A DNA stretch of 64,000 nt from an uncultured Bacteroidota bacterium. GTDB taxonomy: Bacteria; Bacteroidota; Bacteroidia; Bacteroidales; P3. The notes under the pieces were generated by a model, which was not told the origin of the DNA, did no database searches, and worked only from the letters and a program-made list of their open reading frames with translations. The DNA is taken from positions 1-64,000 of the forward strand of contig CACYKY010000012.1 of assembly GCA_902775135.1 (NCBI GenBank), written 5' to 3'. A program made the position numbers and the translations under genes. Below, one piece after another: positions 8,067 through 9,723 of this stretch; the first letter of the stretch is position 1; every line of letters starts with the position of its first letter.

Positions 8067-8386
8067 ATCTTCCAATTCCAGTTCTTCCAATTAAATAAAG
8101 GATGCCAATAACTCCTCTATATAATATATAACTAATTAATAATTAATAATATAAGTATAGAATAGGAAAATTGGTACCCCTCAAAAAACAACTGGAAGAA
8201 CTGGAATCTGGAAGATTCTGAGAGTAATTATTCACCTAAAAGGCAAATAATCAGCACAATACAAATATTCCCAACCACAATTGCCCCCATGAAAACCATC
8301 AAAATCCAGCCAATTACCCCTCTAAAAAGCCACTCCTCTCCCCCCAAATCGCTCCTCATACCCCTCTTTCAGCCACCAAACATCCC
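8067..8386 (+). repeat. Intergenic hairpin element, copy 1
   Basis: The left arm 8067-8092 pairs with the right arm 8190-8216 with one bulge and one mismatch. The loop is about 97 nt, very AT-rich, and ends in GGTACCCCTCAAAAAAC. After the right arm comes a conserved tail with blocks CCTAAAAGGCAAATAATCA, CCTCTAAAAAGCCA and CCAAATCGCTCCTCATACCC. Copy 2 at 8825 has the same order of parts, a closely similar tail and the same pre-arm motif, but its arm sequences are different. Function is unknown; a structured RNA or a mobile palindromic element are both possible. Confidence 0.7.
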
Positions 8387-8494
8387 TTTTCGCGCTCAAA
8401 CCCTCGTCGCAAAAAATCATCTCTCCGACCCCGTTTCATAGCCCTTACCCATCCAAACAACCACCCCAATGCCCAAATCCGACACCCTTTTCCT

Positions 8495-8833
8495 TCATTT
8501 TTGTCCTCTTCTTAAACCCCTTCGGCAGTCATCCCAAGTTAGCTTATAGATATCCTTCATCCGCATAACTCTTTGTGCCTCATAGGGAAAAGCAGCTCGG
8601 TAAAGCAAGCCTCCATAACCAAATCCGACAAGCCCAATCCAACCCCCGTTCGACTCGATCCCGTCGTCTGCTCCCCCATCTGCGATGCAGATTTTCCTAT
8701 ACCCGTATCTGCGTCCTTCTCCATTCTTTTCGTCCTGATAGAACCATATCCTTCCGCAAATCCCACTCCCAAAACTCCATAAGCACCATAGAATGAAAAA
8801 CTTGCCAAAGTCAACCATACAAAACCATGACAA
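8495..8833 (-). CDS. Doubtful ORF on the minus strand, possibly a decayed gene
   Basis: A 112-residue frame (ending DIYKLTWDDCRRGLRRGQK) overlaps another minus frame at 8557-8871 that starts with a hydrophobic stretch. Neither resembles a family I recognise, and codon choice lacks the strong third-position G/C bias of the surrounding genes. The start abuts the left arm of hairpin element copy 2. It could be a relic of a transferred gene, or chance. Confidence 0.15.
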   Translation of the reverse strand: MSWFCMVDFGKFFILWCLWSFGSGICGRIWFYQDEKNGEGRRYGYRKICIADGGADDGIESNGGWIGLVGFGYGGLLYRAAFPYEAQRVMRMKDIYKLTWDDCRRGLRRGQK

Positions 8834-9187
8834 TATGACAGTATGACAATTAAAAAAATGAATGGTATCACCCCTTTCCTTACTTTTTATATATAAATAA
8901 ATATATATAATATATATTTAGTACAATAAAAGGAGAGATGTAACCCCTCAAAAATCAACTGTCATATTGTCTATTGTCATGGATTCATCCATCAAACTCC
9001 CCTAAAAGGCAAATAATCAACAAAATACAAACCAACCAAACTCTCATCCTCCCCAAGAAAACCATAAAAATCCAACCAAAAACCAGCCATTTTTCCTCTA
9101 AAAAGCCATAAAACACCCTCCAAATCGCTCCTCATACCCCTCCAAATCGCTCCTCTCACCCCTCTTTCAGCCACCAAAACACCCCTC
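8825..9187 (+). repeat. Intergenic hairpin element, copy 2
   Basis: The left arm 8825-8851 pairs with 8957-8982 with one bulge and two mismatches of the G/A type that G-U pairing could absorb. The left arm is itself built of degenerate ATGACAAT units. The loop is AT-rich and ends GTAACCCCTCAAAAATC, matching copy 1. The tail repeats the blocks of copy 1 and contains an internal tandem of about 22 nt (TCCAAATCGCTCCTC twice). The arms share no clear sequence with copy 1, although the rest of the element does. Confidence 0.7.
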
Positions 9188-9189
9188 CC

Positions 9190-9261
9190 TTATTGGCCTT
9201 AATGCCCTTAGTGCCCTTATTGCCCTTATTGGCCCTATTGCCCTTATTGCCCCTATCAGCA
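9190..9261 (+). repeat. Tandem array, 9-nt unit, about 8 copies
   Basis: Degenerate units of TTATTGCCC follow one another with an exact 9-nt period. Confidence 0.85.
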
Positions 9262-9496: not shown

Positions 9497-9520
9497 CTTG
9501 CCTGTCACCAAAAAAAAGCA

Positions 9521-9564
9521 AACGCCCACCTAAAGCCCACCTAACGCCCACCCAACACCCACCC
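9521..9564 (+). repeat. Tandem array, 11-nt unit, 4 copies
   Basis: AACGCCCACCT-like units repeat four times. The unit is unrelated to the preceding 11-nt array. An AACTATTA-rich low-complexity stretch follows at 9574-9616. Confidence 0.8.
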
Positions 9565-9630
9565 TCGAACAAAAACTATTAACTATTATCTATAAACTAT
9601 TAACTTTTAACTATTTTCCCCCATTTGTCC

Positions 9631-9660
9631 TCTCACTCCCTCTCACTCCCTTTCACTCCC
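9631..9660 (+). repeat. Tandem array, 10-nt unit, 3 copies
   Basis: TCTCACTCCC repeats three times, the last copy with one change. Confidence 0.8.
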
Positions 9661-9667
9661 ACCCAAG

Positions 9668-9723
9668 ATTCACCATTCACAATTCACCATTCACCATTCA
9701 CAATTCACCATTCACCATTCACT
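9668..9723 (+). repeat. Tandem array, 7-nt unit, 8 copies
   Basis: ATTCACC and ATTCACA heptamers alternate eight times with an exact 7-nt period. Confidence 0.9.

Follow-up and report, generated by a model that had tools for sequence, protein, structure and literature searches.

Inverted arrays of a variable six-base word track recognition-helix residues of an adjacent MCM-like protein in Bacteroidales: candidate replication origins of a mobile element

The window, the whole 64,000-nucleotide stretch of Bacteroidales DNA analysed here, holds two hairpins whose arms differ from one copy to the other, yet stay complementary within each copy. This raises the question of what allows both arms of a palindrome to change together. 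The initial annotation had described two such elements with a common loop, a TACCCCTCAAAAA motif and a shared tail, a description that both sequence and folding bear out (Table 1), and had offered a structured RNA, a recognition palindrome of variable sequence, and retron-like or mobile DNA as explanations. Of these, a variable recognition palindrome belonging to mobile DNA is the option that fits; the variable letters track the DNA-recognition residues of a protein that we call X. Most likely, the structures are inverted iteron arrays recognised by X, forming an origin that follows the logic of the SaPI elements. We give a probability of about 75% to the reading that X, a predicted initiator-helicase, reads these arrays at the replication origin of a mobile element.

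Table 1. Parts of the two hairpin structures in the window
Feature	Position	Strand	Content
Copy 1 left arm	8067..8092	+	Reverse-complement words CTTCCA 8069-8074, ATTCCA 8075-8080, CTTCCA 8084-8089
Copy 1 AT-rich core	8093..8189	+	TACCCCTCAAAAA motif on 3' side
Copy 1 right arm	8190..8216	+	TGGAAG 8193-8198, TGGAAT 8202-8207, TGGAAG 8209-8214
Copy 1 tail	8217..8386	+	Leader (CCTAAAAGGCA) and decayed X 5' end, by comparison with intact X loci
Copy 2 left arm	8825..8851	+	Reverse-complement words ATGACA 8827-8832, 8835-8840, 8843-8848
Copy 2 AT-rich core	8852..8956	+	Carries ACCCCTCAAAAA motif
Copy 2 right arm	8957..8985	+	TGTCAT 8960-8965, TGTCTA 8968-8973, TGTCAT 8975-8980
Copy 2 tail	8986..9187	+	Leader and decayed X 5' end

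In both structures (8067-8216 and 8825-8985), a left and a right arm enclose a core of about 100 bp whose end is (T)ACCCCTCAAAAA. Each arm comprises about three near-tandem copies of a six-base word of the form TG-N3-N4-A-N6, mirrored across the conserved core, whose AT content is 74-80% among the hairpin copies of this genome. In copy 1 the word reads TGGAAG, in copy 2 TGTCAT. DNA folding gives z-scores of -8.0 for the first and -3.9 for the second, and in both cases none of 200 shuffles was equally stable. The flanking genes of the window encode a T9SS-sorted Fn3 protein and an S46 peptidase. As the initial annotation had observed, no reverse transcriptase or transposase lies beside the window copies, and with such neighbours its suggestion of a retron-like element was abandoned, together with that of transposon ends. 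A phase-variable invertible promoter was also rejected, the core having a single orientation relative to the tail and the Bacteroides promoter motif showing no enrichment. In readable relatives, no hairpin occurs upstream of the same peptidase gene; the entire upstream region differs there and, therefore, offers no clean empty site for the window insertion.

Further copies were found, about ten within this genome and many others among relatives of the genus, and their arms proved to be paired with covariation above background. Among 25 aligned hairpins, pairing at the nine innermost pairs reached 93% against 64.6% in shuffles, and the covariation score was 0.634 against 0.171, a score that none of 500 shuffles attained. 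Two-sided changes were seen at each of these nine pairs in the form of Watson-Crick swaps, and no one-sided (G-U) intermediates were detected among them. Arm complementarity was 14.3 within the same locus, 12.75 between loci sharing a word and 5.9 between loci with different words. Most of the arm pairing is due to the shared word. The excess of same-locus arms, reached in 22 of 5000 permutations, suggests that palindromes are corrected to some extent, in addition to being selected for the word. Renewal by template switching, as the initial annotation had proposed, thereby retains a minor role, and gives way to the shared word as the main cause of pairing.

Comparison with other copies showed that the hairpin tail is a decayed gene start, the 5' end of X, which is open elsewhere. 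Intact X encodes 433 amino acids; of the intact genes, two lie on contigs C7 and C22 of this genome and others in several relatives, the remainder being truncated or decayed. In intact loci the hairpin ends about 65 bp upstream of the X start. Some 130 distinct, non-redundant Bacteroidales loci possess an intact X behind such a structure, with 24 words between them, and X lay downstream of the hairpin in nearly all of the first 75 or so loci. A scan of one genome per species across 84,980 species yielded 98 stretches encoding X relatives, assigned to Bacteroidales by their record titles; the genomes are mostly assemblies from metagenomes, with isolates including Segatella copri iA622 and Parabacteroides distasonis An863. 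X is usually followed by a gene for a DnaG-like primase with a CHC2 zinc finger and preceded by a small gene, Y. The CHC2 zinc-finger protein cluster is present in 68 of the clustered loci, 80 of which hold X. Other neighbours comprise an HU-like gene (PF18291) and, in some loci, peptidase-like or restriction-modification genes. Phage, plasmid and PDB sequence searches with X returned no match, and one viral contig was found. In two loci with intact X (L071:1036-6228; L067:6048-8000), nearby genes encode type I restriction-modification proteins and an N6/N4 methylase, which suggests that they are defence cargo of the element. In a further locus (L182:7305-9980), X and the primase are followed by a peptidase-like gene, another gene and two small membrane-protein genes; by eye, the latter two resemble a lysis module, and two genes tested had no Pfam hit.

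X belongs to no Pfam or NCBIfam family and has no PDB relative by sequence. It presumably resembles DUF3987 (Pfam); membership was rejected, since neither X at the gathering score nor its longer homologue L080 gave a Pfam hit. The AlphaFold model (pLDDT 85.8) places an AAA+ core before a C-terminal winged helix formed by helices 385-394 and 399-412 and a wing at 415-426. The predicted core is nearest to MCM helicases (Z 17 over 262 residues, 3.6 A), and in Foldseek a stretch of some 60 residues matched IclR and MarR winged helices. Lysine K80 of the Walker motif is invariant; ATPase activity is nevertheless not certain, because Walker A (SGxNKGQ) and Walker B (NMPEVE) are both atypical.

If X reads the word, its residues should vary with the letters. 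Across about 430 columns of X in the first 65 intact loci, mutual information with the word letters peaked at residue 408 for letter 3, residue 404 for letter 4 and residue 407 for letter 6, and the same peaks recurred on 95 loci. All three residues sit in the second helix of the modelled winged helix (399-412). At residue 407, Arg or Lys goes with C at letter 6, Tyr with G and Ser with T, while Asn accompanies T or C about equally. At residue 408, Lys goes with G at letter 3, Gln with T and Val with A. The last of these depends on residue 405, which has a second-shell effect on letter 3: Val408 with Gln405 is accompanied by A in 43 of 47 loci, and Val408 with Leu405 by T in all seven (numbering of reference L046). 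At residue 404, His goes with G at letter 4 and Asp mostly with C. The constancy of letters 1 and 2 is partly imposed, because the word caller required a TG or CG start. The only intact locus with the word CGGAAC, L091, also has the only X with Leu in place of Arg at 412, a single case. Gene Y and the primase were considered as readers of the word and rejected: the words recur across differing Y types, primase columns gave no comparable peak in the same loci, and even the best Y columns scored lower than X residues 408 and 407. On the smaller subset of loci with Y, X itself was not sharp for letter 4.

Shared ancestry could generate such a correspondence by itself, and was controlled for in three ways. 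In phylogenetically independent pairs, drawn from a tree built without the C-terminal domain of X, Arg or Lys407 went with C by about 9.5:0 (p 0.002), Val, Asn or Met408 with A by 7.2:0 (p 0.016) and Tyr407 with G by 6:0 (p 0.03); independent pairs essentially never opposed the code. Where two X proteins were at least 80% identical, residue 408 differed in 88% of the pairs that differed at letter 3 compared with 19% of those that agreed, and residue 407 in 84% compared with 19% for letter 6. Finally, prediction was assessed on two held-out sets of 33 loci each (66 in all), the code being frozen before the second, and both limited to loci whose two arms each showed a word two or more times. In the first set, the residue compared with the nearest X predicted letter 3 in 86% against 52%, letter 6 in 67% against 58% and letter 4 in 85% against 94%; in the second, the corresponding values were 88% against 72%, 79% against 30% and 87% against 90%. 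When residue and nearest relative disagreed on letter 6 in the second set, the residue was right 16:0. Pooled over both sets, it was right 17:2 for letter 3 and 22:3 for letter 6 (p = 0.0007 and 0.00016 by sign test). For letter 4 there is an association with X that ancestry may account for, residue 404 predicting no better than the nearest relative. Some loci break the code (L252, L254 and L259). The word can often be predicted from the X protein.

Both window copies are best regarded as solo segments of the proposed origin with a decayed X. Each shares its word with one of the two intact X genes found in this genome, the C7 protein (N404, Y407, K408) standing behind TGGAAG and the C22 protein (D404, R407, H408) behind TGTCAT, and X might therefore still bind the window copies in trans. 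The words TGGAAC, CGGAAC, TGTAAT, TGTCGT and TGAGAC occur on further solo copies of this genome, in which no intact X was found for any of them. Solo units of a relative, G003, form small head-to-tail arrays spaced 600-800 bp apart; their loops are up to 98% alike and their arms carry a different word at all six places, nearly every unit of an array having a word of its own. By default we take solo copies to be relics. It is tempting to speculate that they instead serve as a memory or decoy, each unit titrating or blocking the initiator of incoming elements with the same word, thus conferring word-specific immunity or incompatibility, while the words are renewed as perfect palindromes; we regard this as distinctly unlikely. 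Among X proteins resident in one genome, we saw no evidence that equal words are avoided (2 of 21 pairs equal, against 7.8% expected).

The arrays are recognised by X in our reading because the word tracks X residues and because the intact X genes of this very genome carry the window words. Given this tracking, X would bind the words as double-stranded DNA; its MCM-like AAA+ fold, the adjacent gene for a CHC2 zinc-finger primase and the AT-rich core are consistent with X loading at the AT-rich site and opening it. With a change in the recognition helix, all six words would then change in concert, and the arms would come to differ between copies while staying self-complementary. Short tandem repeats lie beside an AT-rich region with about three mirrored words on each side, as in an origin, and intact loci add an adjacent candidate gene for the cognate protein, its predicted helicase-type fold and a primase gene nearby.

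The arrays could instead be operators, X reading the words to regulate its own operon and not to start replication. Their position between Y and X, so close before the X start, would suit an operator, and winged helices are common among repressors, as the IclR and MarR matches illustrate. However, a Bacteroides-type promoter (TTTG / TAnnTTTG) is not enriched at the arrays (0 of 109 in the forward orientation), and an origin better accounts for the MCM-like fold, the primase gene next to X and the two triple arrays that flank an AT-rich core at a spacing of about 100 bp; we consider regulation alone fairly unlikely. Iteron arrays also serve partition and recombination, and the solo-copy arrays of G003 could be accommodated by a centromere-like or recombination site bound by X. 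Against this, neither a ParA nor a recombinase is conspicuous among the recurrent neighbour clusters of X, and the fold of X looks helicase-like, making such a site very unlikely.

Neutral template switching and slippage might renew the palindromes, the link to X then reflecting shared ancestry; the own-arm excess over same-word arms accords with this, as do the G003 solo copies with their near-identical loops and different palindromes. We nonetheless hold it to be highly improbable, as the peaks fall on recognition-helix residues that neighbour each other, the code holds in independent pairs and, for letters 3 and 6, it outperforms the nearest relative on held-out loci. Strong pairing and covariation are likewise what an RNA or single-strand hairpin under selection for its stem would display. 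This explanation is scarcely credible given the lack of one-sided intermediates, the near-equal pairing of same-word arms from other loci and the letters that follow protein residues; an Rfam scan of the hairpins gave no match, and the structured RNA of the initial annotation was discarded on this and on the DNA-type covariation.

An origin of the kind that we propose for X has several parallels. In phage P4, the alpha protein is a primase-helicase initiator, and ori and crr carry iterons around an AT-rich region; alpha is a single fused protein, whereas X and the primase are separate genes. According to the passages of PMC7581432 concerned with SaPI (citing Ubeda et al. 2007), an integrated element encodes the initiator helicase Rep, which recognises short iterons beside rep through its C-terminal domain; the element also has a primase of the AEP family, and the origin lies downstream of rep. 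X would share with Rep, as portrayed there, the C-terminal reading of iterons beside its own gene and a primase within the element; in contrast to that portrayal, its arrays lie upstream, with three words mirrored on either side of an AT-rich core, and the zinc finger of the primase is of the CHC2 (DnaG) type. In SCCmec, the MCM-like Cch and the D5-type helicase Cch2 are thought to be self-loading, and Cch2 uses its C-terminal domain to bind direct repeats that form a putative origin and have a highly conserved word, AAGTG (PMC7581432). Those proteins belong to other families and hosts, and the word of X varies from copy to copy where AAGTG does not. In PLE of Vibrio cholerae, the DNA-binding domain of the initiator RepA co-varies with the origin, which has semi-palindromic iterons, between satellite variants (PMC8263062). 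RepA comes in few allelic modules and uses an N-terminal RepA_N domain; X presents 24 words over 130 loci, a residue-by-letter match and a C-terminal winged helix. We liken X to SaPI Rep, Cch/Cch2 and PLE RepA by logic, not by descent.

Our literature search found no paper describing the X cassette or its word code. Should the binding be confirmed, the loci would constitute a natural residue-to-base code by which a replication initiator of winged-helix type reads DNA, represented by about 130 protein-site pairs with 24 words, and knowing the protein would allow much of its site to be predicted. A widespread, unnamed Bacteroidales cassette, sometimes beside restriction-modification genes, would then be explained as a mobile element's replication module. 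Two questions would become testable: how six sites keep pace with their initiator as it changes, and why the origins of such elements diversify.

Other repeats occur in the vicinity of the hairpins. A MITE-like element of about 180-300 bp with terminal inverted repeats GGTGACCTCTAATAATTAGATTGAGATGG is present in several copies, often beside hairpin arrays, as at L182:7871-8046 and from 8390 in the relative G003, and also in L169 and L174. In the window, the intergenic region downstream of copy 2 contains tandem repeats of the 9-base CCCTTATTG (9187-9260), the 11-base AACGCCCACCT (9520-9563) and the 7-base ATTCACC (9580-9722).
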